Below are positions 12,611 to 36,544 of a stretch of 64,000 nt of DNA, piece by piece. The position numbers and the translations under genes are program-made. Source of the stretch: Pagrus major (Eukaryota > Chordata > Actinopteri > Spariformes > Sparidae). Position 1 is the first letter of the stretch. Each line of letters begins with the position of its first letter. The stretch is taken from NCBI RefSeq assembly GCF_040436345.1, contig NC_133235.1, positions 24,080,660-24,144,659 on the forward strand, in the 5' to 3' direction. The notes below the pieces were generated by a model. It saw nothing but the letters and a program-made list of their open reading frames with translations, was not told where the DNA came from and ran no database searches.

Positions 12611-15600
12611 TTACTCCACGTCTGTTGGATCCCACGTCACACGTCTGTCTTCATGCAGACTCCCCAAAGTGGCCATGTCCAACTCCTCCAGCTGGAACCC
12701 AAACACCTATGTACAGGTAGAGGAGGAGGAAGAGGGTGAAATGAAGAAATGAATTTAATTCAATCTATCCTTTAAAGGTCCAATATGTCAGAAATGTAGT
12801 TTGAAATATTCAATTAAACTTATCCAAACTAAAAATATCAACAGAATGTGAAGAAATGGGAGTTTTGATATTATATCAAAGTGTACTGTGTTGCAGAGAT
12901 GTCTACTGATGTTAGCATGCTCGTACTAGCCTGTCCTTTTTCATAATACCACTCCGACCCTCCTGTCCGGGCCACTAGCTGCACGTCTAACTGAGTCTAA
13001 CACGTGTCTTTTTAATATGTTTTCTGTCTTCATGCATGCTTGATTTGTACGGAAGCCCTAAAGGGCCAGGCATTCATACATTTTATTTCCTCCATTTTCC
13101 TGTGATAACGAGTAAATTTCATTTGTTTTCTCGAGTTATTATCTCGAAATAACTGCCGTTTTCCAAAGATAACGGGATAATTTTCTCGAGATAACGAAAC
13201 TTTGTTTCAAAAAACAAAACGATAGTGTAGTATATTAAATCATTGCAGGAAACATCATTCAGTGTAGCAATGTCAGAGGAGCAGGAGCATATCGATCACC
13301 GCACCACATATGTTTTCAATCAAGGCCTGACACAGGCTGAAATAGCATTATGCCTTGCTATTATAGATAATATACACATTAGTGTGCGTAATCTAAAAAG
13401 ACGGTTAGCAAGGCTTCCGCTATATCGGTGGCACAATCTAAGTGAGCCTGATGTCGTCGTTAACTACATAGCTGACCAGCTACGAGGTCCCGGGCGTCTC
13501 CATAATCTCAGGCCTATCATATCACAGTCATTATCTCGAGATCTCGAATTGATTATATCGTTATCTCGGGAAAACAAAGTTTCATTATCTCGAGATCTCA
13601 AATTAATTATATCGTTATCTCGGGAAAACAAAGTTTCGTTATCTCGAGATCTCAAATTAATTTTATCGTTATCTCGAGATCTCTGGAAAATTATCCCGTT
13701 ATCTCAGGAAAACGGCAGTTGTTATTTCGAGATAATAACTCGATCTCGAGAAAACAAATGAAATTTACTCGTTATCACAGGAAAACGGAGGAAATAAAAT
13801 GTATGAATGCCTGGCCCTGCATTCATACATTTTATTTCCTCCGTTTTCCCGTGATAACGAGTTAATTTCATTTGTTTTCTCGAGATCTCGAGTTATTATC
13901 TCGAAATAACAACTGCTGTTTTCTCGAGATCTCGAATTAATTATATCGTTATCTCGGGAAAACAAAGTTTCGTTATCTCGAGATCTCAAATTAATTATAT
14001 TGTTATTTCGGGAAAACAAAGTTTCGTTATCTCGAGATCTCAAATTAATTATATTGTTATTTCGGGAAAACAAAGTTTCGTTATCTCGAGATCTCAAATT
14101 AATTATATTGTTATTTCGGGAAAACAAAGTTTCGTTATCTCGAGATCTCAAATTAATTATATTGTTATTTCGGGAAAACAAAGTTTCGTTATCTCGAGAT
14201 CTCGGGAAAATTATCCCGTTATCTCAGGAAAACGGCAGTTGTTATTTCGAGATAATAACTCGAGATCTCGAGAAAACAAATGAAATTAACTCATTATCAC
14301 GGGAAAATGGAGGAAATAAAATGTATGAATGCATGGCCCTTTAGGGCTTCCATAGATTTGTCCATCTCAACATAATGAATCTTTCTCAACCTCTCAATTT
14401 TCAACAGTTTTTACGAAGCTTAATGTGCAATCATCCAAAAGACTGACCAAAGCAATTCCAACTCACTTGACAGTTTTCTTTTATCCTCTTCTCTTTGATG
14501 GATTTTGGTATCGTGACAACTCCATTCTGAGGAAAAGAAGGAAAACCACGGCATTAATTATATAACTTGTGACATATGTGTCAGGCTAACTCAACTGAGG
14601 GCAATGTCTGATCAATGTAACAACCTGAATGCTCCAGCGGATGCAGATCTGAGCTGGTGTGCGTCTGTACTTTTCTGCTATCTGGAGAACAGTTGGGTCG
14701 CTGAAGACTTGACCCTTGGCAAGAGGACTGTACCCTTCAACCACGATTCCCTCCTTCTGACAGTACTCCTTCAGGTTACTGGGCTGCTGGAAAGGATGGT
14801 ACTCCACCTGATGAGAACATTTTTAAGATGCATCATAGGCAAGTTTATGGGGCAAGTTAGTACTCAAACAGCAGACTAATATAAGTTTATGGACGAAAGC
14901 TACTTAGAAATACTGCCATAAGTGTGGATATGGGGACCCTCACGCAGGAGCGATCGCACCCTCACAACTACAGTCTTTTTTTATTATCATATCTGAAACA
15001 AAAATATCATTCCCCAAATCTGCCCTGAATTCCCCTAAGAACCAAATAAATACATTTTATGAAAACAAAAAACTAAACCCCTACCTGGTTCACATGTGGC
15101 ACAACACTGCAGTCCTCCTTTAACTGTTCCAGGTGGTGGACCAGAAAGTTGCTCACTCCAATAGCACGGCACACCCCTTCAGTGACAGAGATACTTATGC
15201 TGTATGGATATCCCACTCTCAGCACGTTATCGACTATTCGTAATATGCATATTTTGTATACTTATATTTGATGCTGCCACGGCCTGGATTGCTGCCGAAC
15301 AAAGTTTTGCTGTATTTCAAAAATGCAATGACAATAAAGTATCTATCTATGTTCTGTACCTTCTTCGTAAAGTTCCTCCAAAGCTCTCCAGGTCTCAGCT
15401 CTCACCTCCCTGTTGGAGCAGCCTGGTCGCATTGACCCCGGCCAGTGCATCAGGTACAGATCTGAAAAAAAGGGGGCAGGTGATGAGTTGAGATACTGAC
15501 AAAGATGCACAGAACAAGCATTATTAGACAGAGCAAAACAACAACAAAGAAAACTGTAGTTTCATACCAAAATATTCAACCCCCATCCTTGAGCAGGAGT

Positions 15601-16266: not shown

Positions 16267-16749
16267 GTTCACCTGAGCAGTGCTGGGCAACCTGTGATGA
16301 AAATAAAAGTCATTATTAGTTATTATTATCTGCTAACTTTAACGAACATCTGGGTCCTAGCCTGCTATTACACATCTGCAACAATAAAGACTACCCACAT
16401 CCTTCCAAAGCACTTTTTGTTCATACTATATACCCGTTGCAAACACCGCACCGCCAACGACACGTACCTGAGCTTTGCTGTGACAAATGTGGACTTTCAA
16501 GTTGAAGCCCATTGTGAAGTAGTTTTGCGTGTTGTAGTTTTCAAAGCAAACACATTAGCATCTCTGGGGTGGGAGGAGATATGCCTCCGAGAGGAAAACC
16601 AAATGACACGACAGGCAGGCCTATGGGTAATCCGTTGGTTCAGCCCACAAAGATGGCGTCTGTTTTCAAAGCGCTCAAGTGAGTGAAGACTGACGTACGA
16701 CACCGTTGCGTAGAAAACGCAAACGTAAAGGAGTAAACCGCATTTTATT

Positions 16750-16812
16750 AGGGCCCGAGCACGGAACTCCGTGCGAGGACCTATTGAAATCGTAAGAATT
16801 CTTATTATTATT
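16750..16812 (+). repeat. Extra unit head at the left edge of the array
   Basis: A 63 bp copy of the unit head (GGGCCCGAGCACGGAACTCC and onward) followed directly by the full head of unit 1. Its hairpin arm sequence (CACGG/CCGTG) differs from all others in the array. Extra heads also occur at 19986 and 25194. Confidence 0.8.
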
Positions 16813-18374
16813 AGGGCCCGAGCAGTGAAACTGCGAGGACCCTATTGTAATTGTAATGATTATTATTTTTTGTTATATTTTTTCTTTGTCCAAAATGATC
16901 GCATTTTTCACTGCCTGAACATACCCCAAAACTCATCAAACTTGGAATATAGATCAGACCTGGCGAAAAATTTTATAATCTGTTGTCATTGTGAATTTTC
17001 AGCACTAGGTGGCGCTATAATCAAGGAAAGTGCGTTTTGGCTAATAACTCCCACATACTTTGTCGCACGTTCAAAAACCTTATATCCACGCGTTCAGTGA
17101 ATCTTGCTGAATCTCCTGATATAGGCCACGCCCATTTCCGCCTACCGTTTTTTTTCGCTAGCTCGCGAAATGTCGCAAACCTACTTTTTCGAACTCCTCC
17201 CGGGCAATTTCACCAATGTGCATGAAACTTTGCACACAGCATCTGTGGACACTCCTGACAAAAAGTTATTAAAAGAATTTTAATATTCCAAACAATACTC
17301 AAGTTATTAAATACCAACTTCCTGTGGATTCGGGTCACAACAGGAAGTGTTGCATATCTCCACATTGGTGTGTCCGAATGACGTGAAACTCAGGATACTA
17401 CTTCCCCATGAGCCCCTAAGGCTCTGTGCCAAATGTTGGCCCATGACCACTAGGTGGCGCTATTTAAATTGAAGTATTTTATATCTCGACATCGGTTGGT
17501 CGGATTAACACAAAACTTGGTCCACTGATTGCCAATGGCCTCCTGAGGACAGCTGAGAAAGGGGTTACCGATCTGACACTAGGTGGCGCTCTGGTGGCAG
17601 TTTCATTTTATATTTGGCACTGTGCCCACACCATAACACTTATGGATATGAAATTCATAGGGGTGGTATAGACTGGCCCCTGTAACTCACACACCAAAAA
17701 TGACCAGCAGGTGGCGCTATTATCAAGAAAAAACGTTTTTTGCTAATTACTCCCACATAATATGGTGGACATTGTTAAACATTATATCTATATCTTTCCT
17801 GAATACAGCCGAACCGTGTGATGTAGGCCACGCCCACGTTCGCACTGAATTTCCATTCGCAAATTCGCCAAATGTCGCAAACCTACTTTTTCGAACTCCT
17901 CCCAGGCTATTTTTCCAATTTGCACCAAACTTTGCACGCAGCATCTCTGGACCCTCCTGACAAAAAGTTATTAAAAGAAATGTGCTAGTCCACAGAACGC
18001 CCAAAATATAAAACAACAATTTCCTGCGCATTGTGGTTAAACAGACATTCTTGTGTATCTTGATGAAATACAGTCCGATGAACACAAAACTTTTTTGATT
18101 TGTCTTCCATGCCCACATGAGGGTTCGTGCCAAATTCGGTGCATATCCACCAATAGGTGGCGCTTTTATTGCTAAATGACGAAATGACAGCTTGACTGCC
18201 TTCACTGTCATTTCCTCAATGGAAGTTGTTGCATGTAGAAGCCCCGACAGCAGCATGTCACGACAGCAGCTTGCCCCAACGGCAGCATGTCCCGACAGCA
18301 GCACGCCCGAGAGCAGCACGCCCCGACCCGCGTGGACTGCGAGGGCCCGTTCATCGCTGCTTGCAGCTTTAATT
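16813..18374 (+). repeat. Array unit 1
   Basis: A 1562 bp unit. CTCF-like motif cores (AGGTGGCGCT) start at 17007, 17452, 17581, 17709 and 18155. The unit ends in a short block of a 15-bp CAG-rich repeat (about 18240-18330), then TTCATCGCTGCTTGCAGC. Confidence 0.88.
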
Positions 18375-19985
18375 AGGGCCCGAGCAGGGAACCTGCGAGG
18401 TCCCTATTGTAATTGTAGTGATTATTATTTTTTTTTTTTTTTTTTTTCTTCTGACGAAATGATCGCATTTTTCACTGCCTGAACATACCCCAAAACTCAT
18501 CAAACTTGGAATATAGATCAGACCTGGCGAAAAATTTTATAATCTGTTGTCATTGTGAATTTTCACCACTAGGTGGCGCTATAATCAAGGAAAGTGTGTT
18601 TTGGCTAATAACTCCCACATACTTTGTCGCACATTCAAAAACCTTATATCCACGCGTTCAGTGAATCTTGCTGAATCTCATGATATAGGCCACGCCCATT
18701 TCCGCCTACCGTTTTTTTTCGCTAGCTCGCGAAATGTCGAAAACCTACTTTTTCGAACTCCTCCCAGGCAATTTTACCGATTTGCACCAAACTTTGCACA
18801 CAGCATCTGTGGACCCTCCTGACAAAAAGTTATTAAAAGAATTTTGCTATTCCAAACAATACTCAAGTTATTAAATAACAACTTCCTGTAGATTCGGGTC
18901 ACAACAGGAAGTGTTGCATATCTCCACATTGGTGTGTCCAAATGACGTGAAACTCAGGATACTACTTCCCCATGAGCCCCTAAGGCTCTGTGCCAAATGT
19001 TGGCCCATGACCACTAGGTGGCGCTATTTAAATTGAACTATTTTATATCTCGACATCGGTTGGTCAGATTAACACAAAACTTGGTACACTCATTGCCAAT
19101 GGCCTCCTGAGGACAACTGACGAAGGTGTTACCGATCTGACACTAGGTGGCGCTCTGGTGGCAGTTTCATTTTATAATTGGCACTGTGCCCACACCATAA
19201 CACTTATGGATATGAAACTGATTGGGGTGGTATAGACTGGCATCTGTAACTCACACACCAAAAATCACCAGCAGGTGGCGCTATTATCAAGAAAAAATGT
19301 TTTTTGCTAATTACTCCCACATAATATGGTGCACATCGTTAAACATTATATCTATATGTTCCCTGAATACAGCCGAACCGTGTGATGTAGGCCACGCCCA
19401 CGTTCGCACTGAATTTCCATTCGCAAATTCGCCAAATGTCGCAAACCTACTTTTTCGAACTCCTCCCAGGCAATTTTTCCAATTTGCACCAAACTTTGCA
19501 CACAGCATCTGTGGAGTCTCCTGACAAAAAGTTATTAAAAGAATTGTGATAGTCTAAAGTACGGCCAAAATATAAAACAACAATTTCCTGCACGTTGTGG
19601 TAAACCACACAGTCTTGCATATCTTGATGAAATACAGTCCGATTAACACAAAACTTTTTTGATTTGTCTTCCATGCCCACATGAGGGTTCGTGCCAAATT
19701 CGGTGCATATCCACCAATAGGTGGCGCTTTTATTGCTAAATGACGAAATGACAGCTTGACTGCCTTCACTTTCATTTCCTCAATGGAAGTTGTTGCATGT
19801 AGAAGCCCCGACAGCAGCGCGCCCCGACAGCAGCACGCCCGACAACAGCATGCCCCGACAGCAGCATGCCCCGACAGCAGCTTGCCCCAACGGCAGCATG
19901 TCCCGACAGCAGCACGCCCGACAGCAGCACGCCCCGACTTGCGTGGACTGCGAGGGCCCGTTCATCGCTGCTTGCAGCTTTAATT
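18375..19985 (+). repeat. Array unit 2
   Basis: A 1611 bp unit. Motif cores start at 18571, 19016, 19145, 19273 and 19719, with the same spacings as unit 1. Its head hairpin is of the GCAGG-GAA-CCTGC type. The CAG-rich block at 19805-19940 is longer than in unit 1. Confidence 0.88.
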
Positions 19986-22093
19986 AGGGCCCGAGCAGTG
20001 AAACTGCGAGGACCCTATTGTTTTTGTAGTGATTATTAGGGCCCGAGCAGTGAAACTGCAAGGACCCTATTGTAATTGTAGTGATTATTATTTTTTTTTT
20101 TTTTTTTCTTCTGACGAAATGATCGCATTTTTCACTGCCTGAACATACCCCAAAACTCACCAAACTTGGAATATAGATCAGACCTGGCGAAAAATTTTAT
20201 AATCTGTTGTCGTTGTGAATTTTCAGCACTAGGTGGCGCTATAATCAAGGAAAGTGTGTTTTGGCTAATAACTCCCACATACTTTATCGCACATTCAAAA
20301 ACCTTATATCCACGCGTTCAGTGAATCTTGCTGAATCTCCTGATATAGGCCACGCCCATTTCCGCCTACCGTTTTTTTTCGCTAGCGCGCAAAATTTCGC
20401 AAACCTACTTTTTCGAACTCCTCCCAGGCAATTTGACCAATTTGCACCAAACTTTGCACACAGCATCTGTGGACCCTCCTGACAAAAAGTTATTAAAAGA
20501 ATTTTGCTATTCCAAACAATACTCAAGTTATTAAAGAACAACTTCCTGTAGATTTGGGTCAAAACAGGAAGTGTTGCACAGCTCCACATTGGTGTGTCCA
20601 AATGACATGAATCTCAGGATACTACTTCCCCATGAGCCCCTAAGGCTCTGTGCAAAATCTTGGCCCATGACCACTAGGTGGCGCTATTTAAATTGAAGTA
20701 TTTTATATCTCAACATCGGTTGGTCAGATTAACACAAAACTTGGTACACTGAATGCCAATGGCCTCCTGAGGACAACTGACGAAGGTGTTACCGATCTGA
20801 CACTAGGTGGCGCTCTGGTGGCAGTTTCATTTTATAATTGGCACTGTGCCCACACCATAACACTTATGGATATGAAACTGATTGGGGTGGTATAGACTGG
20901 CATCTGTAACTCACACACCAAAAATGACCAGCAGGTGGCGCTATTATCAAGACAAAACGTTTTTTGCTAATTACTCTCACATAATATGGTGCACATTGTT
21001 AAACATTATATCTATATGTTCCCTGAATACAGCCGAACCGTGTGATGTCGGCCCCGCCCACGTTCGCACTGAATTTCCATTCGCAAATTCGCCAAATGTT
21101 GCAAACCTACTTTTTCGAACTCCTCCCAGGCAATTTTTCCAATTTGCACCAAACTTTGCACAGAGCATCTGTGGACTCTCCTGACAAAAAGTTATTAAAA
21201 GAATTGTGATAGTCTTAAGAACGACCAAAATATAAAACAACAATTTCCTGCACGTTGTGGTAAACCACACAGTCTTGCATATCTTGATGAAATACAGTCC
21301 GATTAACACAAAACTTTTGGCAATTGTGTTCCATGGCACGATGAGCATTTCTACCAAATTTCGTGCTAATCGACCAATAGGTGGCGCTATTATCAAGAAA
21401 AAACGTTTTTTGCTAATTACTCCCACATAATATGGTGCACATTGTTAAACATTATATCTATATGTGCCCTGAATACAGCCGAACCGTGTGATGTAGGCCA
21501 CGCCCACGTTCGCACTGAATTTCTATTCGCAAATTTGCCAAATGTCGCAAACCTACTTTTTCGAACTCCTCCCAGGCAATTTCTCCAATTTGCACCAAAC
21601 TTTGCACGCAGCATCTGTGGACCCTCCTGACAAAAAGTTATGAAAAGAAATGTGCTAGTCCACAGACCGCCCAAAATATAAAACAACAATTTCCTGCACA
21701 TTGTGGTCAAACAGACATTCTTGTGTATCTTGATGAAATACAGTCCAATTAACACAAAACTTTTGGCAATTGTGTTCCATGGCACGATGAGCATTTCTAC
21801 TAAATTTCGTGCAAATCGACCAATAGATGGCGCTTTTATTGCTAAATGACGAAACAGCAGCTTCACTGCCTTCAGTTTTGATTCCTCTATGGAAGTTGTT
21901 GCATATACAAGCCTCGACAGCAGCATGCCCACACAGCAGCATGTAACGACAGCAGCATGCCACGACAGCAACATGCCCCGACAGCAGCATGTCACGACAG
22001 CAGCATGCCCCGACAGCAGCATGTCCCGACAGCAGCACGCCCCGACCCGCGTGGACTGCGAGGGCCCGTTCATCGCTGCTTGCAGCTTTAATT
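19986..22093 (+). repeat. Array unit 3 (long form with duplicated second module)
   Basis: A 2108 bp unit with two heads (19986 and 20038) and an extra copy of the second module (about 21375-21820). Motif cores start at 20231, 20676, 20805, 20933 and 21379, with a degenerate AGATGGCGCT at 21825. From the second head to the end it appears identical to unit 6. Confidence 0.88.
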
Positions 22094-23607
22094 ATTATTT
22101 GTTTTTTTTTTTTTTTTCCTGCCAAAATGATCGCATTTTTCACTGCCTGAACATACCCCAAAACTCACCAAACTTGGAATATAGATCAGACCTGGCGAAA
22201 AATTTTATAATCTGTTGTCGTTGTGAACTTTCACCACTAGGCGGCGCTATAATCAAGGAAAGTGTGTTTTGGCTAATAACTCCCACATACTTTATCGCAC
22301 ATTCAAAAACCTTATATCCACGCGTTCAGTGAATCTTGCTGAATCTCCTGATGTAGGCCACGCCCATTTCCGCCTACCGTTTTTTTTCGCTAGCTCGCAA
22401 AATGTCGAAAACCTACTTTTTCGAACTCCTCCCAGGCAATTTCACCGATTTGCACGAAACTTTGCACACCGCATCTGTGGTCCCTCCTGACAAAAAGTTA
22501 TTAAAAGAATTTTAATACGCCAAAGAATACTCAAGTTATTAAATAACAACTTCCTGTGGATTCGGGTCACAACAGGAAGTGTTGCATATCTCCACATTGG
22601 TGTGTCCAAATGACGTGAAACTCAGGACACTACTTCCCCATGAGCCCCTAAGGCTGTGTGCAAAATCTTGGCCCATGACGACTAGGTGGCGCTATTTAAA
22701 ATGAAGTATTTTATATCTCCACATCGGTTGGTCGGATTAACACAAAACTTGGTACACTGATTGCCAATGGCCTCCTGAGGACAGCTGACAAAGGGGTTAC
22801 CGATCTGACACTAGGTGGCGCTCTGGTGGCAGTTTCATTTTATAATTGGCACTGTGCCCACACCATAACACTTATGGACATGAAACTGATTGGGGTGGTA
22901 TAGACTGGCATCTGTAACTCACACACCAAAAATCACCAGCAGGTGGCGCTATTATCAAGACAAAACGTTTTTTGCTAATTACTCTCACATAATATGGTGC
23001 ACATTGTTAAACATTATATCTATATGTTCCCTGTATCCAGCCGAACCGTGTGATGTCGGCCACGCCCACGTTCGCACTGAATTTCCATTCGCAAATTCGC
23101 CAAATGTCGCAAACCTACTTTTTCGAACTCCTCCCAGGCAATTTCTCCAATTTGCACCAAACTTTGTACGCAGCATCTGTGGACCCTCCTGACAAAAAGT
23201 TATTAAAAGAAATGTGCTAGTCCACAGACCGCCCAAAATATAAAACAACAATTTCCTGCACATTGTGGTCAAACAGACATTCTTGTGTATCTTGATGAAA
23301 TACAGTCGGATGAACACAAAACTTTTGGCAATTGTGTTCCATGGCACGATGAGCATTTCTACTAAATTTCGTGCAAATCGACCAATAGGTGGCGCTTTTA
23401 TTGCTAAATGACGAAACAGCAGCTTCACTGCCTTCAGTTTTGTTTCCTCTACAGAAGTTGTTGCATGAACAAGCCTCGACAGCAGCATGCCCGGACAGCA
23501 GCATGTCACGACAGCAGCATGCCCCGACAGCAGCACGCCCCGACGGCAGCACGGCCCGACCCGCGTGGACTGCGAGGGCCCGTTCATCGCTGCTTGCAGC
23601 TTTAATT
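22094..23607 (+). repeat. Array unit 4 (head missing)
   Basis: A 1514 bp unit that lacks the GGGCCCGAGC head hairpin and starts directly with the ATT/poly-T tract. Motif cores start at 22239 (AGGCGGCGCT variant), 22684, 22813, 22941 and 23387. Confidence 0.86.
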
Positions 23608-25193
23608 AGGGCCCGAGCAGGAAACCTGCGAGGTCCCTATTGTTTTTCGAATGATTCTTATTATTATTATTATTATTTTTATTTTTATTGTTCCCAAATG
23701 ATCGCATTTTTCACTGCCTGAACATACCCCAAAACTCACCAAACTTGGAATATAGATCAGACCTGGCGAAAAATTTTATAATCTGTTGTCGTTGTGAACT
23801 TTCACCACTAGGCGGCGCTATAATCAAGGAAAGTGTGTTTTGGCTAATAACTCCCACATACTTTATCGCACATTCAAAAACCTTATATCCACGCGTTCAG
23901 TGAATCTTGCTGAATCTCCTGATATAGGCCACGCCCATTTCCGCCTACCGTTTTTTTTCGCTAGCTCGCAAAATGTCGAAAACCTACTTTTTCGAACTCC
24001 TCCCAGGCAATTTCACCGATTTGCACGAAACTTTGCACACCGCATCTGTGTTCCCTCCTGACAAAAAGTTATTAAAAGAATTTTAATACGCCAAAGAATA
24101 CTCAAGTTATTAAATAACAACTTCCTGTGGATTCGGGTCACAACAGGAAGTGTTGCATATCTCCACATTGGTGTGTCCAAATGACGTGAAACTCAGGACA
24201 CCATTTCCCCATGAGCCCCTAAGGCTGTGTGCAAAATCTTGGCCCATGACCACTAGGTGGCGCTATTTAAAATGAAGTATTTTATATCTCCACATCGGTT
24301 GGTGGGATTAACACAAAACTTGGTACACTCATTGCCACTGCCCTCCTGAGGATAGCTGACAAAGGGGTTACCGATCTGACACTAGGTGGCGCTCTGGTGG
24401 CAGTTTCATTTTATAGTTGGCACTGTGCCCACACCATAACACTTATGGATATGAAACTGATTGGGGTGGTATAGACTGGCATCTGTAACTCACACACCAA
24501 AAATCACCAGCAGGTGGCGCTATTATCAAGAAAAAACATTTTTTGCTAATTACTCCCACATAATATGGTGCACATTGTTAAACATTATATCTATATATTC
24601 CCTGAATACAGCCGAACCGTGTGATGTAGGCCACGCCCACGTTCGCACTGAATTTCCATTCGCAAATTCGCCAAATGTCGCAAACCTGCTTTTTCGAACT
24701 CCTCCCAGGCAATTTTTCCAATTTGCACCAAACTTTGCACACAGCATCTGTGGACTCTCCTGACAAAAAGTTATTAAAAGAATTGTGATAGTATAAAGAA
24801 CGACCAAAATATAAAACAACAATTTCCTGCACGTTGTGGTAAACCACACAGTCCTGCATATCTTGATGAAATACAGTCCGATTAACACAAAACTTTTTTG
24901 ATTTGTCTTCCATGCCCACATGAGGGTTTGTGCCAAATTTGGTGCATATCCACCAATAGGTGGCGCTTTTATTGCTAAATGACGAAATGACAGCTTGACT
25001 GCCTTCACTTTCATTTCCTCAATGGAAGTTGTTGCAAGTAGAAGCCCCGACAGCAGCATGTCACGACAGCAGCATGCCCCGACAGCAGCACGCCCCGACA
25101 GCAGCACGCCCGAGAGCAGCACGCCCCGACAGCAGCACGCCCCGACCTGCGTGGACTGCGAGGGCCCGTTCATCGCTGCTTGCAGCTTTAATT
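23608..25193 (+). repeat. Array unit 5
   Basis: A 1586 bp unit with a GCAGG-type head, and a first motif of the AGGCGGCGCT variant at 23810, as in unit 4. The first halves of units 4 and 5 are very similar, suggesting a recent shared origin. Confidence 0.86.
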
Positions 25194-27304
25194 AGGGCCC
25201 GAGCAGTGAAACTGCAAGGACCCTATTGTAATTGTAATGATTATTATTAGGGCCCGAGCAGTGAAACTGCAAGGACCCTATTGTAATTGTAGTGATTATT
25301 ATTTTTTTTTTTTTTTTTCTTCTGACGAAATGATCGCATTTTTCACTGCCTGAACATACCCCAAAACTCACCAAACTTGGAATATAGATCAGACCTGGCG
25401 AAAAATTTTATAATCTGTTGTCGTTGTGAATTTTCAGCACTAGGTGGCGCTATAATCAAGGAAAGTGTGTTTTGGCTAATAACTCCCACATACTTTATCG
25501 CACATTCAAAAACCTTATATCCACGCGTTCAGTGAATCTTGCTGAATCTCCTGATATAGGCCACGCCCATTTCCGCCTACCGTTTTTTTTCGCTAGCGCG
25601 CAAAATTTCGCAAACCTACTTTTTCGAACTCCTCCCAGGCAATTTGACCAATTTGCACCAAACTTTGCACACAGCATCTGTGGACCCTCCTGACAAAAAG
25701 TTATTAAAAGAATTTTGCTATTCCAAACAATACTCAAGTTATTAAAGAACAACTTCCTGTAGATTTGGGTCAAAACAGGAAGTGTTGCACAGCTCCACAT
25801 TGGTGTGTCCAAATGACATGAATCTCAGGATACTACTTCCCCATGAGCCCCTAAGGCTCTGTGCAAAATCTTGGCCCATGACCACTAGGTGGCGCTATTT
25901 AAATTGAAGTATTTTATATCTCAACATCGGTTGGTCAGATTAACACAAAACTTGGTACACTGAATGCCAATGGCCTCCTGAGGACAACTGACGAAGGTGT
26001 TACCGATCTGACACTAGGTGGCGCTCTGGTGGCAGTTTCATTTTATAATTGGCACTGTGCCCACACCATAACACTTATGGATATGAAACTGATTGGGGTG
26101 GTATAGACTGGCATCTGTAACTCACACACCAAAAATGACCAGCAGGTGGCGCTATTATCAAGACAAAACGTTTTTTGCTAATTACTCTCACATAATATGG
26201 TGCACATTGTTAAACATTATATCTATATGTTCCCTGAATACAGCCGAACCGTGTGATGTCGGCCCCGCCCACGTTCGCACTGAATTTCCATTCGCAAATT
26301 CGCCAAATGTTGCAAACCTACTTTTTCGAACTCCTCCCAGGCAATTTTTCCAATTTGCACCAAACTTTGCACAGAGCATCTGTGGACTCTCCTGACAAAA
26401 AGTTATTAAAAGAATTGTGATAGTCTTAAGAACGACCAAAATATAAAACAACAATTTCCTGCACGTTGTGGTAAACCACACAGTCTTGCATATCTTGATG
26501 AAATACAGTCCGATTAACACAAAACTTTTGGCAATTGTGTTCCATGGCACGATGAGCATTTCTACCAAATTTCGTGCTAATCGACCAATAGGTGGCGCTA
26601 TTATCAAGAAAAAACGTTTTTTGCTAATTACTCCCACATAATATGGTGCACATTGTTAAACATTATATCTATATGTGCCCTGAATACAGCCGAACCGTGT
26701 GATGTAGGCCACGCCCACGTTCGCACTGAATTTCTATTCGCAAATTTGCCAAATGTCGCAAACCTACTTTTTCGAACTCCTCCCAGGCAATTTCTCCAAT
26801 TTGCACCAAACTTTGCACGCAGCATCTGTGGACCCTCCTGACAAAAAGTTATGAAAAGAAATGTGCTAGTCCACAGACCGCCCAAAATATAAAACAACAA
26901 TTTCCTGCACATTGTGGTCAAACAGACATTCTTGTGTATCTTGATGAAATACAGTCCAATTAACACAAAACTTTTGGCAATTGTGTTCCATGGCACGATG
27001 AGCATTTCTACTAAATTTCGTGCAAATCGACCAATAGATGGCGCTTTTATTGCTAAATGACGAAACAGCAGCTTCACTGCCTTCAGTTTTGATTCCTCTA
27101 TGGAAGTTGTTGCATATACAAGCCTCGACAGCAGCATGCCCACACAGCAGCATGTAACGACAGCAGCATGCCACGACAGCAACATGCCCCGACAGCAGCA
27201 TGTCACGACAGCAGCATGCCCCGACAGCAGCATGTCCCGACAGCAGCACGCCCCGACCCGCGTGGACTGCGAGGGCCCGTTCATCGCTGCTTGCAGCTTT
27301 AATT
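25194..27304 (+). repeat. Array unit 6 (long form, duplicate of unit 3)
   Basis: A 2111 bp unit with two heads (25194 and 25249) and the extra second module. It matches unit 3 at a constant offset of 5211 bp with no difference in the stretches compared. Confidence 0.88.
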
Positions 27305-28891
27305 AGGGCCCGAGCAGGGAACCTGCGAGGTCCCTATTGTTTTTCGAATGATTCTTATTATTATTATTATTATTATTATTATTTTTAGGCCAAAATGATC
27401 GCATTTTTCACTGCCTGAACATACCCCAAAACTCATCAAACTTGGAATATAGATCAGACCTGGCGAAAAATTTTATAATCTGTTGTCATTGTGAATTTTC
27501 AGCACTAGGTGGCGCTATAATCAAGGAAAGTGTGTTTTGGCTAATAACTCCCACATACTTTGTCGCACATTGAAAAACCTTATATCCATGCGTTCAGTGA
27601 ATCTTGCTGAATCTCCTGATATAGGCCACGCCCATTTCCGCCTAACGTTTTTTTTCGCTAGCGCGTGAAATGTCGAAAACCTACTTTTTCGAACTCCTCC
27701 CAGGCAATTTCACCGATTTGCACCAAACTTTGCACACAGCATCTGTGGACGCTCCTGACAAAAAGTTATTAAAAGAATTTTGATATGCCAAAGAATACTC
27801 AAGTTATTAAATAACAACTTCCTGTGGATTCGGGTCACAACAGGAAGTGCTGCATATCTCCACATTGGTGTGTCCAAATAACATGAAACTCAGGATACTA
27901 CTTTTACATGAGCACCTAAGGCCCTGTGCGAAATTGTGGTCGATGACCACTAGGTGGCGCTCTTTAAATTGAAGTATTTTATATCTCCACATTGGTTGGT
28001 CGGATTAACACAAAACTTGGTACACTGATTGCCAATGGCCTCCTGAGGACAACTGACGAAGGTGTTACCGATCTGACACTAGGTGGCGCTCTGGTGGCAG
28101 TTTCATTTTATAATTGGCACTGTGCCCACACCATAACACTTATGGATATGAAACTGATTGGGGTGGTACAGACTGGCATCTGTAACTCACACACCAAAAA
28201 TGACCAGCAGGTGGCGCTATTATCAAGAAAAAACGTTTTTTGCTAATTACTCGCACATAATATGGTGCACATTGTTAAACATTATATCTATATGTTCCCT
28301 CAATACAGCCGAACCGTGTGATGTAGGCCACGCCCACGTTCGCACTGAATTTCCATTTGCAAATTCGTCAAATGTCGCAAACCTACTTTTTCGAACTCCT
28401 CCCAGGCAATTTCTCCGATTTGCACCAAACTTTGCACGCAGCATCTGTGGACCCTCCTGACAAAAAGTTATTAAAAGAAATGTGCTAGTCCACAGAACTC
28501 CCAAAATATAAAACAACAATTTCCTGCACATTGTGGTCAAACAGACATTCTTGTGTATCTTGATGAAATACAGTCCGATTAACACAAAACTTTTGGCAAT
28601 TGTGTTCCATGACACGATGAGCATTTCTACTAAATTTCGTGCAAATCGACCAATAGGTGGCGCTTTTATTGCTAAATAACGAAACAGCAGCTTCACTGCC
28701 TTCAGTTTTGTTTCCTCTACGGAAGTTGTTGCATGAACAAGCCTCGACAGCAGCATGCCCAAACAGCAGCATGTAACAACAGCAGCATGCCCCGACAGCA
28801 GCATGTAACGACGGCAGCATGCCGCGACAGCAGCACGCCCCGACCCGCGTGGACTGCGAGGGCCCGTTCATCGCTGCTTGCAGCTTTAATT
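27305..28891 (+). repeat. Array unit 7
   Basis: A 1587 bp unit with a GCAGG-GAA-CCTGC head and a long (ATT)n tract (about 27356-27385). Five motif cores are present at the standard positions. Confidence 0.87.
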
Positions 28892-30427
28892 AGGGCCCGA
28901 GCAGTGAAACTGCAAGGACCTATTGTAATTGTAATGATTATTATTATTATTATTATTATTATTTTTTTTTTCCTGCCAAAATGATCGCATTTTTCACTGC
29001 CTGAACATACCCCAAAACTCATCAAACTTGGAATATATGTCACACCTGGCGAAAAATTTTATAATCTGTTGTCGTTGTGAACTTTCACCACTAGGTGGCG
29101 CTACAATCAAAGAAAGTGCGTTTTGGCTAATAACTCCCACATACTTTGTCGCACATTCAAAAACCTTACATCCACGCGTTCAGTGAATTGTGCTGAATCT
29201 CCTGATATAGGCCACGCCCATTTCCGCCTACCGTTTTTTTTCGCTAGCTCGCGAAATGTCGAAAACCTACTTTTTCGAACTCCTCCCAGGCAATTTCACC
29301 GATTTGCACGAAACTTTGCACACAGCATCTGTGGATGCTTCTGACAAAAAGTTATTAAAAGAATTTTGATACGCCAAGGAGTACTCAAGTTATGAAATAA
29401 CAACTTCCTGTGGATTCGGGTCACAACAGGAAGTCCTGCATATCTCCACATTGGTTTTTCCAAATGACGTGAAACTCAGGATCCTACTTCCCCATGAGCC
29501 CCTAAGGCTCTGTGCAAAATCTTGGCCCATGACCACTAGGTGGCGCTATTTAAATTGAAGTATTTTATATCTCGACATTGGTTGGTCGGATTAACACAAA
29601 ACTTGGTACACTGATTGCCAATGCCCTCCTGAGGATAGCTGAGAAAGGGGTTACCAATCTGACACTAGGTGGCGCTCTGGTGGCAGTTTCATTTTATAAT
29701 TGGCACTGTGCCCACACCATAACACTTATGGATATGAAACTGATTGGGGTGGTATAGACTGGCCCCTGTAACTCACACACCAAAAATGACCAGCAGGTGG
29801 CGCTATTATCAAGAAAAAACGTTTTTTGCTAATTACTCCCACATAATATGGTGCACATTGTTAAACATTATGTCTATATGTTCCCTGAATACAGCCGAAC
29901 AGTGTGAGTAGGCCACGCCCACGTTCGCACTGAATTTCCATTTGCAAATTCGCCAAATGTCGCAAACCTACTTTTTCGAACTCCTCCCAGGAAATTTTTC
30001 CAATTTGCACCAAACTTTGCACGCAGCATCTCTGGACCCTCCTGACAAAAAGTTATTAAAAGAAATGTGCTAGTCCACAGAACGCCCAAAATATACAACA
30101 ACAATTTCCTGCGCATTGTGGTCAAACAGACATTCTTGTGTATCTTGATGAAATACAGTCCGATGAACACAAAACTTTTGGCAATTGTGTTCCATGGCAC
30201 GATGAGCATTTCTACAAAATTTCGTGCAAATCGACCAATAGGTGGCGCTTTTATTGCTAAATGACGAAATGACAGCTTCACTGCCTTCACTTTCATTTCC
30301 TCCATGGAAGTTGTTGCATGAACAAGCCCCGACAGCAGCATGCCCCGACAGCAGCACGCCCGACAGCAGCACGCCCCGACCCGCGTGGACTGCGAGGGCC
30401 CGTTCATCGCTGCTTGCAGCTTTAATT
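28892..30427 (+). repeat. Array unit 8
   Basis: A 1536 bp unit with a GCAGT-GAA-ACTGC head and an (ATT)n tract. Five motif cores are present. The CAG-rich block at its end is short (about 30328-30380). Confidence 0.87.
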
Positions 30428-32016
30428 AGGGCCCGAGCAGGGAACCTGCGAGGTCCCTATTGTAATCCTTGTGATTCTTATTATTTTTCTTGTTCCCAAA
30501 TGATCGCATTTTTCACTGCCTGAACATACCCCAAAACTCATCAAACTTGGAATATAGATCAGACCTGGCGAAAAATTTTATAATCTGTTGTCGTTGTGAA
30601 TTTTCAGCACTAGGTGGCGCTATAATCAAGGAAAGTGTGTTTTGGCTAATAACTCCCACATACTTTGTCGCACATTCAAAAACCTTATATCCACGCGTTC
30701 AGTGAATCTTGCTGAATCACCTGATATAGGCCACGCCCATTTCCGCCTACCGTTTTTTTTCGCTAGCTCGCGAAATGTCAAAAACCTACTTTTTCGAACT
30801 CCTCCCGGGCAATTTCACCGATTTGCACCAAACTTTGCAAACAGCATCTATGGATGCTTCTGACAAAAAGTTATTAAAAGAATTTTGATACACCAAGGAG
30901 TACTCAAGTTATTAAATAACAACTTCCTGTGGATTCGGGTCACAACAGGAAGTCTTGCATATCTCCAAATTGGTTTGTCCAAATGACGTGAAACTCAGGA
31001 TACTACTTCCCCATGAGCCCCTAAGGCTGTGTGCAAAATCTTGGCCCATGACCACTAGGTGGCGCTATTTAAATTGAAGTATTTTATATCTCAACATCGG
31101 TTGGTCAGATTAACACAAAACTTGGTACACTGATTGCCAATGGCCTCCTGAGGACAACTGACGAAGGTGTTACCGATCTGACACTAGGTGGCGCTCTGGT
31201 GGCAGTTTCATTTTATAATTGGCACTGTGCCCACACCATAACACTTATGGATATGAAATTCATAGGGGTGGTATAGACCGGCCCCTGTAACTCACACACC
31301 AAAAATGACCAGCAGGTGGCGCTATTATCAAGAAAAAAAGTTTTTTGCTAATTACTCCCACATAATATGGTGCACATTGTTAAACATTATATCTATATGT
31401 TCCCTGAATACAGCCGAACCGTGTGATGTAGGCCACGCCCACGTTCGCACTGAATTTCCATTCGCAAATTCGCCAAATGTCGCAAACCTACTTTTTCGAA
31501 CTCCTCCCAGGCAATTTCTCCGATTTGCACCAAACTTTGCACGCAGCATCTGTGGACCCTCCTGACAAAAAGTTATTAAAAGAAATGTGCTAGTCCACAG
31601 AACGCCCAAAATATAAAACAACAATTTCCTGCACATTGTGGTCAAACAGACATTCTTGTGTATCTTGATGAAACACAGTCCGATGAACACAAAACTTTTG
31701 GCAATTGTGTTCCATGGCACGATGAGCATTTCTACCAAATTTCGTGCAAATTGACCAATAGGTGGCGCTTTTATTGCTAAATGACGAAATGACAGCTTCA
31801 CTGCCTTCACTTTTGATTCCTCAACGGAAGTTGTTGCATGAACAAGCCCCGACAGCAGCATGTAACAACAGCAGCATGTAACGACGGCTATCAGTTACGA
31901 CATGCGCGCACAATAACGGGGCATTGGGTCCGGGTAAGGAGCACGCCCCGGACGGCAGCAAGCCCCGACCCGCGTGGACTGCGAGGGCCCGTTCATCGCT
32001 GCTTGCAGCTTTAATT
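30428..32016 (+). repeat. Array unit 9
   Basis: A 1589 bp unit with five motif cores. Its CAG-rich block is interrupted by a foreign-looking segment around 31888-31945 containing ACATGCGCGCACAATAACGG, which is also found near the end of unit 10. Confidence 0.86.
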
Positions 32017-33858
32017 ATTATTATTATTCTCCTTCTTCCTCACAAAGGATCGCATATTTGGCGGCCGCAACATACCCCAAAACTCACCAAACTTGGAATA
32101 TAGATCAGACCTGGCGAAAAATTTTATAATCTGTTGTCGTTGTGAATTTTCACCACTAGGTGGCGCTATAATCAAGGACAGTGCGTTTTGGCTAATAACT
32201 CCCATATACTTTGTCGCACATTCAAAAACCTTACATCCACGCATTCAGTGAATTCTGCTGAGTCTTCTGATATAGGCCACGCCCATTTCCGCCCCAGGTT
32301 TTTTTTCCGCAAATTCGCAAAATGTCGAAAACCTACTTTTTCGAACTCCTCCCAGGAAATTTCACCGATTTGCATGAAACTTTGCACACAACATCTGTGG
32401 ACCCTTCTGACAAAAAGTTATTAAAAGAATTTTGGAATTTCAAGTAATACTCAAGTTATTACATAACAACTTCCTGCAGATTTCGTTCCAAACAGGAAGT
32501 GTTGCATATCTCCACATTGGTGTGTCCAAATGACATGAAACTCAGGATACTACTTCCCCATGAGCCCATAAGGCTCTGTGCAAAATTTTGGTGGATGACC
32601 ACTAGGTGGCGCTCTTTAAATTGAAGTATTTTATATCTCCACATCGGTGGGTCGAATTAACACAAAACTTGGTACACTCATTGCCAATGCCCTCCTGAGG
32701 ATAGCTGACAAAGGGGTTACCGATCTGACACTAGATGGCGCTCTGGTGGCAGTTTCTTTTTATATTTGGCACTGTGCCCACACCATAACACTTATGGACA
32801 TGAAATTCATAGGCGTGGTATAGACTGGCCCCTGTAACTCACACACCAAAAATGTTCCATGGCACGATGAGCATTTCTTCGACGTTTTTCAAACATCTCC
32901 TAGCTCTGGCCTACGTTCACCTAGAAACACCATTCAAACTTTAAAATGTAGGCACGGGTCTTGTCTATTTAAGTCGTATTTGAACTTTTTTCCCACAATG
33001 TTTCGTTTTTGAACTGTGACCCTTTAATGATGCTGAGTGAATTTTAAAGAATTTTGAAAATTTTAGTTTTTTCAATGATTGTGTATTGCGGAATGTTCGT
33101 GCAGAACCAACTGCCAGAGTGTGGGAGACTAAAAAAAAACTCTCAGAAATTCTCTTTCTCTGACGATCCCAGCCACAAATTACACAGTAGAAATGTGATT
33201 TTTTCACAGAGTTGTAGCCACACTTGTCTTCTTTCTCCCAATGTGTCTTCTTTATCAGTAGGATTTACGGTTTTTGATTTATCTGCCCCTAACCAACAAG
33301 AGTAGCTCTCAACTGTTCCATTTACTCCAATGTTAATCGGGAGGAGGATTTTCCAGGATTTTTCAAACTGCACCTGTTTTGAACTCGCTCCTATTACCAC
33401 ATTTTAGAAGCTAGGACCACAAAAAATTATGGCTGTGTTCTTTAAGGCCTTTCTGGCTTGACGGTGAAGAAATTTTGCCGATATCATGTTTGGTTTTGAA
33501 GATATAGCAGTAGTTTGAAGTCCTACTTCTGAGCCAGAAATCACTCTCAGATCAGCTCTGTCACAGACAGCAGCTGTGGTCACAGGCCATTGCTAGGGAG
33601 TTCCGACAACCATCACCGTAGCAACTGAGATCAACTGGGCCAACAGAGACACACAATTAATATTCCCCCTGTCTTGGAATATAGATCAGACCTGGCGAAA
33701 AATTTTCTAATCTGTTGTCATTGTGAACTTTCACCAGTTAAGACATGCGCGCACAATAACGGGGCAATGGGTTCGGGAAAGGAGCACGCCCCGACAGCAG
33801 CACGCCCCGACCCGCGTGGACTGCGAGGGCCCGTTCATCGCTGCTTGCAGCTTTAATT
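32017..33858 (+). repeat. Array unit 10 (divergent, interrupted edge unit)
   Basis: An 1842 bp edge unit, clearly older or less homogenised than the rest. It lacks the GGGCCCGAGC head, has a divergent start (CGCATATTTGGCGGCCGC), and carries only the first three motifs (32158, 32603, and AGATGGCGCT at 32733). Its second module is replaced by about 0.8 kb of unrelated sequence (about 32855-33675) before the common unit end returns. This sets the right border of the array. Confidence 0.82.
32855..33675. other. Unrelated segment replacing the second half of unit 10
   Basis: This stretch does not match the other units. It has no ORF longer than about 85 codons and no recognisable protein. On its right it re-enters unit sequence at GGAATATAGATCAGACCTGG, a phrase that belongs to the start of a unit, so the junction is a rearrangement rather than a simple clean insertion. 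Confidence 0.6.
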
Positions 33859-34054: not shown

Positions 34055-36544
34055 ATGAGGTGAGTGTTGAGTTACGGAAAGAAATAAACCATCACTTCTA
34101 CTGCTCTGAATACAAACAAACACCTCCTCCGTGCGGCGGTAAACTTAACGTATTTCGTCACGTAGGAAGTAATAAAAGAGTTGAGCATAAAGTCGTGTTT
34201 TCATACAGCAAGAAAGTTTTGCCGTCGGCTAATATCTACTGTGATTTGTTTACAAAACATGGCTAATGAGCTAGCTAGGGATTCTGGACCTTCGAGTCAA
34301 AACTATTGTGGGACTCACTTTGTCAATAAAATCAACCTGCTGATTTTCTCCAGATGTTTACCTTCTATAATCAATCTTTTAACGATGCTGGTTAAACTGT
34401 TAATGTGCACCAGGAATATCTTTTAGACACTTCCTGGCAGAACCAGTGTGTTCAGAAAGCTTCACCTGGACATGAATGAATGCAGTAAAAGAGTCTCTAC
34501 AAAAATAACATATGATAGATATAGATATCTTTTAATATACCCAGCGGCGTCTCTTTCTCAGTTTCACCCAGTGTTGGCAGCAGGAGGACGGTTAGCTCCC
34601 CTCCCAGAACCTCGGGCTGGGCTGGGGTGGAGGCTGACTTAGGGACCATCAATAAATTACACTATTGTTTGTTTTGATTCACACAAAAACATTGTTTCTT
34701 CATGCTGACTTGATGATATTAGTGAAAATTATTATTAAAAATTTTTTTTTATACTAAACTGATTTTATGTAGCACTTATTTTGATTGCCAATGTGTTATG
34801 TATTTGTTTTGCAAAAATATTTTTATATGACAATAGCTTTATTTTTCAATAGCTTCTATGTCATGTGACCCAGTGACTCAAAACCAATGCCGAATTGTAT
34901 CACTACGCAGGCCACATAGGAGACACCTCTTTTTATTGGATTTTACAACTTCTTCTATTTTATATCAATATTTTTATCAAAATTCAACAGTTTTTTTCAA
35001 TGGTTTCCATGTCATGTGACCCAGTGACTCAAAATCAATGCCGGATTGTATCACTACACAGGCCACATAGGTCACACCTCTTTTTATTAGATTAGATATT
35101 GATATATTGCCCAGCCCTATTTTCATCTAGCCTCGCCGGAGTCTATTGTAAAAGCTAATGTTCTGGGATGTCTCAACTGGAAGCGACAAAATCTGGAGTA
35201 CATTGTAATAGGATGTCCTGCACCTTCTGTGACACAGGGTCCCCCGTTGCTGCATCAGGCTCAGACGAATCTATTTGGTTTGGCCAATTCTGCTTCTTCT
35301 CCTGGTGGGTGCAGCCTTGACAGCTCTGCTGCCCCCCGCTGAGGACCAAGGAGGTCGTGGCGTCCTGGGAGTGCTTCGCCGGGCCACATCACAACAGGAC
35401 AATCCTGCACAGGGCCTCCACGGTGACAGCACAGAGGAGGAGCAGAGATTTACCATCATCATTCAAACTTACAACCGCACAGACGTTTTGCTCAAACTCC
35501 TGAACCACTACCAGGCAGTACCTCATCTTCAGCGGATTATCATTGTCTGGAACAACGTGGGGGAGCAGACACCCCTGAAGTTATGGAACTCTTTGGGGCC
35601 TCATCCCGTCCCTGTGGTCTTCAAGGAGCAGACCAGCAACCGAATGCGAAACAGACTACAACCATTCCCTGAGATTGATACTGATGGTCAGTTCGTCTAT
35701 AACTTTCATATTGTTTGTGTCTGTGTCAACATCTTTATTTAGTGTCTTTTTACTTATTTTTGCTCTGATCCTTAGCTGTGCTGATGCTGGATGACGACAC
35801 CCTCGTCAGTGTTCCTGACCTCAGTTTTGCTTTCTCTGTCTGGAAGGTAGTACGTTCAATGAAAAATACAGTTGAGAGTGGTAATTGAACATTTAACTGC
35901 AACATACACAATGTTACTGACCGAAGTCGTTCGAACTTTGGTTCCACAGCAATTTCCAGACCAGATTGTTGGGTTTGTCCCAAGGAAACATGTCTCAACA
36001 CCAGGAGGGGTGTACAGTTATGGCAGCTTTGAACTGCAGGACCCAGAAACATCTGGAGGTGACAAGTAAGTTGTGCCTCTCTTTGAAAGCTTCACATATA
36101 CTGCATCTTTTTGGTGTACTTATATCCTGATCCACTTGCTGCAGATACTCCATGGTGTTAATTGGTGCTGCCTTCTTCCACCGCCGCTACCTGCAGCTCT
36201 TCCAGGACCAACCTCAAACAGTGCACGCGCTGGTGGACGAAACACAGAATTGTGACGATATTGCCACAAACTTTGCTGTAGCGCTGTATTTGAGGAAACA
36301 CTCCACAGGCAGCATTAAGAAACCGTCTGGGGTCTTTGTCAAACCCGTGGACCTCCGCAACCTGGAAAAGGATGCCAGCAGTGGGTATCAGGGTATGTGG
36401 CATCGCCCAGAACACCTCCTTCAGAGATCCTACTGTCTGAACAAGCTGACACAGATCTATGGCTTCATGCCACTCTGCTTCTCCAACCTGATGGTCTCCC
36501 AGTTTGGCTTCCCCAGCTATGCCAACCACAAGAGTCGAGGCTGA
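34055..36544 (+). CDS. extl2: Exostosin-like 2, alpha-1,4-N-acetylhexosaminyltransferase
   Basis: EXTL2 is a Golgi/ER type II membrane glycosyltransferase that adds GlcNAc/GalNAc to the glycosaminoglycan-protein linkage region. Exons are 34055-34059, 35238-35686, 35776-35846, 35950-36065 and 36145-36544, giving 1041 bp and 346 residues. The start was chosen because no in-frame ATG precedes the long exon (a TGA at 35230-35232 blocks it), while ATGAG|GTGAGT at 34055 joins in frame to give MRVPRCC, like the MRCC start known for mammalian EXTL2. A signal anchor follows (YLVWPILLLLLVGAALTALL). The GT64 fold shows QTYNRTDVLLKLLNHYQAVP, the metal-binding MLDDDT, VGFVPRKHVS, YSYGSFE, and the acidic DETQNCDDIATNF. 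The C-terminus lacks an obvious retention signal. Mammalian EXTL2 has 330 residues. No break was seen. Confidence 0.93.
34849..35100 (+). repeat. Two tandem copies of a ~151-bp segment in extl2 intron 1
   Basis: TCATGTGACCCAGTGACTCA occurs at 34861 and again at 35012, with the following ~80 bp also alike (through GGCCACATAGG and CACCTCTTTTTATT). The second copy runs into TTGCCCAGCCCTA (about 35108-35120), a typical end of a fish MITE, so the pair may be part of a transposon. Confidence 0.65.

Follow-up and report, generated by a model that had tools for sequence, protein, structure and literature searches.

A putative Helentron-type element of Pagrus major, amplified in tandem, appears selected to keep a CTCF-like word

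Introduction

Tandem repeats that carry CTCF motifs in a single orientation are known from DXZ4/Dxz4, and the available text on that locus describes Dxz4 repeat units as little conserved except for the CTCF motifs and a short further part (PMC5899087). CTCF-like sites are also spread by transposons, among them the mammalian SINE B2, HERV and MER20 as covered in the accessible part of a review (PMC7786948). Mammalian transposons are known to spread such sites, but as a rule a site of use to the transposon cannot be told from a by-product. A further group of elements, the non-coding HINEs and DINE-1-like Helentrons, is characterized in the sections at hand of Thomas 2014 (PMC4067079) by short inverted repeats near both ends, of which the 5′ one encloses a hairpin arm in DINE-1, by a palindrome that immediately precedes the 3′ end, by T-flanked insertion and by internal tandem repeats, and in the Pacific oyster Cg_HINE tandem repeats are carried and spread by elements of the HINE type, according to the excerpt available (PMC7492417). 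Here we describe a locus of the sea bream Pagrus major that shares these features: a 64,000-nucleotide stretch of the genome (the window hereafter; C21:24,080,660-24,144,659) in which copies of a HINE-like element stand in tandem and carry CTCF-like words that all point one way, the likeness to DXZ4 being one of sequence only. The word appears to be maintained in the lineages of the element that multiply.

Results

A one-way grid of CTCF-like cores in a tandem array of a mobile element

The region is almost certainly a tandem array of a mobile element, and its two main features are the following.

16747 to 32870, + strand: tandem array of nine near-complete units with 5-6 cores each and one truncated unit, a HINE-like non-coding element (from unit identities core to core, heads and 3′ ends).
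17007 to 32742, + strand: 50 CTCF-like cores of five site types, T1-T5, on a grid of 445/129/128/446 (from word match and matrix scan).

A first-pass annotation of the window had proposed about fifty CTCF-like motifs in one orientation on a regular grid, and this description held. The array contains 50 cores, all on the + strand, comprising 45 exact copies of the 10-bp AGGTGGCGCT (17007-32613; these are all the exact copies in the window, and shuffled sequences lead to an expectation of 0.04) and five one-letter variants, AGATGGCGCT at 21825, 27036 and 32733 and AGGCGGCGCT at 22239 and 23810. When up to one mismatch to AGGTGGCGCT was allowed, 53 matches were found in the window, 50 of them within 17007-32742 and three outside. 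Core-to-core spacing inside the units is 445/129/128/446; the exceptions are units 3 and 6, with one additional 446-bp module each, unit 8, whose last spacing is 445, and the truncated tenth unit, with 446/129. The letters preceding the core are those first listed (CCAC, GCAC, ACAC, CCAG and CCAA), plus one CGAC at 22684. Taken over the whole element, the word has the form (C)CA(C/G/A)(T/C)AGGTGGCGCT and is present in 4-10 copies per element in one orientation.

The proposed scan with a CTCF matrix also came out positive. Using MA0139.1 on both strands, we obtained p<1e-6 for 49 of the 50 cores and p=3.8e-6 for the remaining one, all on the + strand; inside the array no minus-strand match reached p<1e-5 and three reached p<1e-4. 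The same matrix identifier was used in a zebrafish study (Kaaij 2018, PMC6047509), where, in the portion available, a FIMO score above 12 served as motif cut-off in one analysis; our score is comparable, not identical, and with a uniform background all 50 cores exceed 12 bits, versus nine sites on both strands of the remaining 46.7 kb. Judged by its sequence, the word is a credible CTCF site. Outside the array there are four matches at p<1e-6, the best at 7631. Two single strong matches beyond the array are those at 7631 (+, p 1.1e-8) and 61763 (+, p 1.5e-7).

The one-way orientation and the regular grid arise because the region consists of tandem copies of a mobile element. By themselves, then, they are no evidence for a loop anchor made by the host. 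Thus, of the earlier interpretation, the naming of the motif is borne out by the matrix and the retention of the word by the divergence of its flanks, whereas an evident, purpose-built host anchor is not, as orientation and grid follow from tandem copies of an element found on many chromosomes.

The word is kept across site types and very probably in multiplying lineages

That the word is retained while its surroundings diverge, as had been claimed, is clear from the comparison of T1-T5: all ten core columns are invariant, versus 16 of 131 flank columns (Fisher 9e-9, columns taken as independent), and flank identity among the five types averages 42%. A relationship is evident between the flanks of T2 and T3 and between those of T3 and T5 (none of 500 shuffles did as well), but not clearly so for the eight other pairs. 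T1 and T4 share 75% identity over 300 bp beginning with the core, which places the word at joints between modules and indicates that modules are exchanged there. In a census of joints covering 683 sites in 64 loci and the window (a few sites were counted twice through overlapping loci, at least one via L002/L003), upstream and downstream types matched at 639 sites. T4-upstream sequence was joined to T1-downstream at 22 sites in 18 loci, T5-upstream to T4-downstream at six sites in five loci including the window, and 16 sites were of other or unclear composition.

To see in which lineages the word changes, we placed 118 distinct T2-T3-T4 segments, taken from 59 loci that include the window, in a tree built without the cores and assigned changes to branches by parsimony; the copies are not independent, and gene conversion within arrays could distort single branches. 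The cores had 8 internal and 42 terminal changes, versus 475 and 684 in the rest of the segments (p=3e-4). Among 298 shifted triple windows none had as few internal changes, while 52 had as few terminal ones. Since columns used in tree building can look more internal, we also rebuilt the tree for each of 60 shifted windows with that window omitted. These controls had a mean of 43 internal changes (minimum 16) and 62 terminal ones (minimum 25); none of the 60 was as low as the core in internal changes or in internal share, and 10 were as low in terminal changes. Terminal changes are for the most part later than insertion. The rate at which cores decay after insertion is hence not clearly below that elsewhere, and decayed copies seldom give rise to others. 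A deficit of internal changes next to nearly ordinary terminal ones argues that the word is kept in the multiplying lineages, very probably by selection, and that it probably serves the element's own multiplication.

Conservation across copies

We collected 35 loci outside the window, 14 and 20 from lists of matches to the 3′ end and one (L023) from a match containing the core. Locating the sites by their flanks only gave 254 sites in 34 loci, 219 of which have the exact core. Among distinct copies in the loci outside the window, the CpG of the core was kept in 198 of 207 cases, versus 708 of 1095 for other CpGs, and non-CpG core cells differed in 22 of 1656 cases, versus 2612 of 40192 elsewhere; in these figures selection by an exact 3′ end favours young copies, and subfamily differences are mixed with later decay. 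The T1 and T2 cores are among the quietest 10-column stretches, 15 and 5 of 210, respectively, being as quiet or quieter. In the tree of T2-T3-T4 segments, terminal CpG decay amounted to 8 of 346 in the core versus 36 of 545 (p=0.004). Protection of inserted copies from CpG methylation was considered as a cause; genome-wide, non-CG letters were found at 25 of 1271 places for one core CpG versus 33 of 1039 for a neighbouring CpG (p=0.08), and as these counts differ little we do not lean on that explanation.

The ends of the element are HINE-like

The element is very probably a non-autonomous, non-coding Helentron type with HINE-like ends. Its typical head is AGGGCCCGAGCAGT-GAA-ACTGCGAGGACCCT and its 3′ end is ACTGCGAGGGCCCGTTCATC-GCTGCTTGCAGC-TTTAATT, identical in all ten copies in the window. 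The inverted repeats near the ends are imperfect: by eye, 5′ GGGCCCGAGCAGT agrees with 3′ ACTGCGAGGGCCC, read as its reverse complement, at 11 of 13 positions. They lie directly behind the flanking TT(A), in agreement with HINEs, whose repeats are 12-15 bp long with the 5′ one 2-4 nt from the end. A palindrome, GCTGC-TT-GCAGC, followed by TTTAATT closes all ten 3′ ends of the window; HINEs likewise have a palindrome or stem-loop near this end. As in DINE-1, a hairpin is nested in the 5′ repeat, with stems AGT/ACT, AGG/CCT and ACGG/CCGT in which pairing is preserved. TT precedes 142 of 142 heads in the window and the loci (overlapping loci counted twice), in line with insertion at T-rich sites; the T flank on the 3′ side is biased, most loci having been found through the 3′ end. 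The distance of the 3′ inverted repeat from the end is about 26 nt, below the 38-60 bp given for mite HINE families in the part of Thomas 2014 (PMC4067079) that bears on them, a range that is not presented there as universal. The letters of the 5′ hairpin correspond only partially to those of the 3′ repeat. We noted also that CCTGC 3′ ends occur mostly with AGG/CCT heads (11 of 12), and that AGG/CCT heads occur with ACTGC ends as well (28). A canonical Helitron (5′ TC, 3′ CTRR, A-T insertion) is ruled out by the ends (TT)AGGG... and ...TTTAATT.

The element was not described in the literature searched (CTCF in teleost transposons, and the words of the element), and it may well be catalogued in Dfam, Repbase or FishTEDB. 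Pattern scans of viral and prokaryote collections gave no match.

Distribution in the genome

In the host genome (786 Mb, 25 contigs) there are 1,607 exact copies of the element's 3′ end, and CCACTAGGTGGCGCT occurs 2,729 times versus none for its reversed control. The element is present on many chromosomes, also as isolated insertions with one head and one 3′ end. Among the matches listed (the first 100, all on C1 and C2), long arrays are found within the terminal 3.3 Mb of C2, and isolated insertions in other places. In these matches, many copies and arrays in long one-orientation stretches fall within 33.4-36.5 Mb of C2, a 36.8-Mb chromosome; the T4 word is all minus at 35.45-35.74 Mb and plus at 35.78-36.13 Mb, with one plus 3′ end at 35.54 Mb as an exception. 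Opposite-orientation pairs of the element a few kb apart, with near-identical cores and spacings (L012/L013 and L016/L017), suggest inverted duplications.

Of five places where CCACTAGGTGGCGCT seemed to be scattered, four are fragments of the element, and one of the five has a second word 446 bp on. The remaining place, L065, does not match the array at E 1e-3; with other loci it gives only short alignments around its word, the best at E 0.027. At about 151-165 of L065 the CTCF-like word stands in a context without clear similarity to the element. Its longer word, TGTTGCCACTAGGTGGCGCTA, is found at eight places in the genome, and this context may possibly represent a second repeat family carrying the word.

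Anatomy of the array and its surroundings

Units 1-9 follow one another head to tail with 92-99% identity core to core. The window holds 11 heads and 10 identical 3′ ends; the 5′ head is absent from unit 4 and doubled in units 3 and 6. The further features of the array are as follows.

16747 to 16809, + strand: extra element head before the array, with the variant hairpin CACGG/CCGTG.
16810 to 18374, + strand: unit 1, from the 5′ head (AGGGCCCGAGCAGT..ACTGC hairpin) to the 3′ end (ACTGCGAGGGCCCGTTCATCGCTGCTTGCAGCTTTAATT).
17007 to 17306, + strand: module D, starting at the T1 core, 75% identical to 17709-18008 (repeat family D1).
17709 to 18008, + strand: module D′, starting at the T4 core (repeat family D1).
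18243 to 18327, + strand: minisatellite of 16-bp period (CCCGACAGCAGCATGT) close to where unit 1 ends; reported also from other units, in varying copy number.
21379 to 21824, + strand: extra 446-bp module of unit 3; at the 10-bp word of its first core, upstream sequence of T5 type passes into downstream sequence of T4 type.
26590 to 27035, + strand: counterpart of the extra unit 3 module in unit 6, the two units sharing 99.4% identity.
32017 to 32870, + strand: truncated tenth unit with three cores; both the 5′ head and the 3′ end are missing, and the right edge was set approximately, by eye.
33670 to 33858, + strand: further element fragment with a complete 3′ end; left edge by eye.

A higher-order duplication is seen in units 3 and 6 (20231-22110 and 25442-27321), which lie 5,211 bp apart. 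The CpG observed/expected ratio is 0.80 in the array (16980-32000) versus 0.50 and 0.43 in the flanks, which fits a young or little-methylated repeat. A coding origin of the array was not supported, the one array frame scanned, of 223 aa on the minus strand, having no Pfam match, and a known structured RNA was not supported by Rfam, which gave no match in the window at gathering scores.

On either side of the array the window holds fragments of animal genes, a Roquin-like exon (1567-2304) and glycosyltransferase-64 exons (35233-35742 and 36131-36544), the latter presumably belonging to an EXTL2-like gene. Two 54-bp minisatellites (13528-13676 and 13918-14203) are rich in the near-palindrome TTATCTCGAGATCTC and by eye are unrelated to the array.

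Discussion

We favour, with a probability of roughly 55% for the explanation as a whole, a HINE-like tandem array whose word is needed for multiplication and is read by a CTCF-like protein. A non-autonomous element with Helentron ends would have been moved in trans and then locally amplified head to tail, and the word at its module joints would be a cis-acting protein-binding site that the element needs to multiply. Copies losing the word would have inserted and persisted, rarely founding new lineages. The most likely reader would be the host's CTCF, or a zinc-finger protein of overlapping specificity, acting in the germ line or early embryo, and its binding would keep the element open or suitably placed for replication; the array would then be a directional CTCF bank incidentally. 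Binding of the array by CTCF in some tissue seems probable, and CTCF itself is proposed as the main selecting reader tentatively, with appreciable doubt. A wider proposal is more doubtful still: that selection gave a fish rolling-circle lineage its bank of one-way CTCF sites, 4-10 to the copy, by which to engage the host's loop-extrusion machinery, with arrays acting as DXZ4-like directional barriers at many places in the genome.

Several results weigh against our explanation. When the cores are taken singly, T2, T3 and T4 have 6, 1 and 1 internal changes, and 125, 42 and 42 of 398 windows have as few; by this measure the T2 core on its own is unremarkable, and those of T3 and T4 fall roughly within the quietest tenth. 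Across copies, the T3, T4 and T5 cores are only in about the quieter fifth (42, 44 and 42 of 210 stretches as quiet), and when the window is considered by itself the core shows only a modest deficit of changes (30 of 1046 shifts as low). Genome-wide, a CpG of the T3 core has survived at 1246 of 1271 places and a CpG 18 nt upstream at 1006 of 1039 (p=0.08), which gives no strong hint of a special protection. As for the reader, the C of matrix position 4 is absent from T3 and from some of T1, and several loci contain copies with C5A or A9T, which either multiplied or were duplicated along with the neighbouring sequence. The number of internal changes per position at positions 4-18 does not follow the tolerance of the CTCF matrix (rho -0.27, p 0.33; 25 events): positions 16-18, where CTCF tolerates changes, have none, and positions 5-6, where it tolerates little, have five. 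This test spans T1-T5, and its T1 rows include eight loci (L001-L008) found through the T1 core. Internal changes lower the matrix score by 2.51 bits on average (n=25), much as terminal ones do (2.71 bits, n=83), and the matrix cost of the variants in the window is not significantly below random (P=0.086, from a hand-made list of 11 events). The pattern of conservation is therefore not clearly CTCF-like, and its 25 events are weak evidence against CTCF.

These last results bear on a different reader, namely the Rep/helicase of an autonomous Helentron, for which the word would be an iteron-like site that resembles CTCF's by coincidence. Conservation centred on AGGTGGCGCT and off the CTCF profile would suit such a site, as would 4-10 copies per element in one orientation relative to the ends and selection seemingly acting in multiplying lineages. 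However, the shared signature described in the sections of Thomas 2014 available to us (PMC4067079) consists of terminal sequences, not internal sites, and chance is unlikely to produce, over 15 bp, agreement with a strong CTCF site at most positions. We consider this reader unlikely.

Our explanation has the word read by a protein, whereas it might instead be mainly a joint for recombination or template switching, its identity at the joints coming from exchange. Homology blocks do start and stop at the core, D and D′ begin exactly there, and the T5-upstream/T4-downstream cores of units 3 and 6, together with the T4/T1 (22) and T5/T4 (6) joins among the 683 sites, point in this direction. But with 639 of the 683 sites homotypic, exchange is rare and probably goes back to few events, and a 10-bp joint leaves the small number of internal substitutions in the T2, T3 and T4 cores together unexplained, which makes this account quite unlikely.

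An ordinary young repeat, conserved through recency or through artefacts of tree and alignment, would agree with the 92-99% identity of the units, with the modest conservation of the core within the array alone, with single cores that are not always outstanding and with the small genome-wide CpG difference (p=0.08). It does not account for identity across five old site types, nor for a deficit of internal changes that persists when control windows are equally left out of the tree, and we regard it as very unlikely. Finally, a directional loop anchor beside the EXTL2-like gene, regulatory for the host and under host selection, is highly improbable in spite of the strong one-way matrix matches and the precedent of tandem one-way CTCF motifs in what is available on Dxz4 (PMC5899087), as similar arrays lie elsewhere, largely distally on C1 and C2 among the first 100 matches listed, and as core terminal changes are not clearly fewer than elsewhere, so that individual copies are not evidently protected.

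Probable selection of the word in multiplying lineages bears on the question raised for mammalian transposons: the different behaviour of internal and terminal changes suggests a benefit for the element's own multiplication, and thousands of natural variants are at hand to test individual positions of the word. Should CTCF be the reader, the arrays would be natural experiments in directional loop barriers outside mammals. Maps of CTCF sites based on motifs could be affected in such fish, given 2,729 occurrences of CCACTAGGTGGCGCT and four of five scattered places that proved to be pieces of the element.

What appears to be new here is an element apparently selected to keep the word. DXZ4, in the text available (PMC5899087), is a single X-linked host locus with demonstrated CTCF binding, whereas the sea bream array belongs to a dispersed mobile element with 5-6 predicted sites per unit. 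In contrast to SINE B2, HERV and MER20, as far as the review covers them in its accessible part (PMC7786948), the element is of the rolling-circle type, lives in a fish and carries many one-way sites per copy. It differs from the HINEs of PMC4067079 in the distance between its 3′ inverted repeat and the end (about 26 nt, against 38-60 for mite HINEs), in repeats that match at 11 of 13 positions, and in its repeated CTCF-like words, which go unmentioned for HINEs in the sections at hand. Unlike Cg_HINE of the Pacific oyster, as described in the available excerpt (PMC7492417), the present element has in addition been amplified as a whole, head to tail, and what recurs in it is a 10-bp word that its modules retain despite their divergence.

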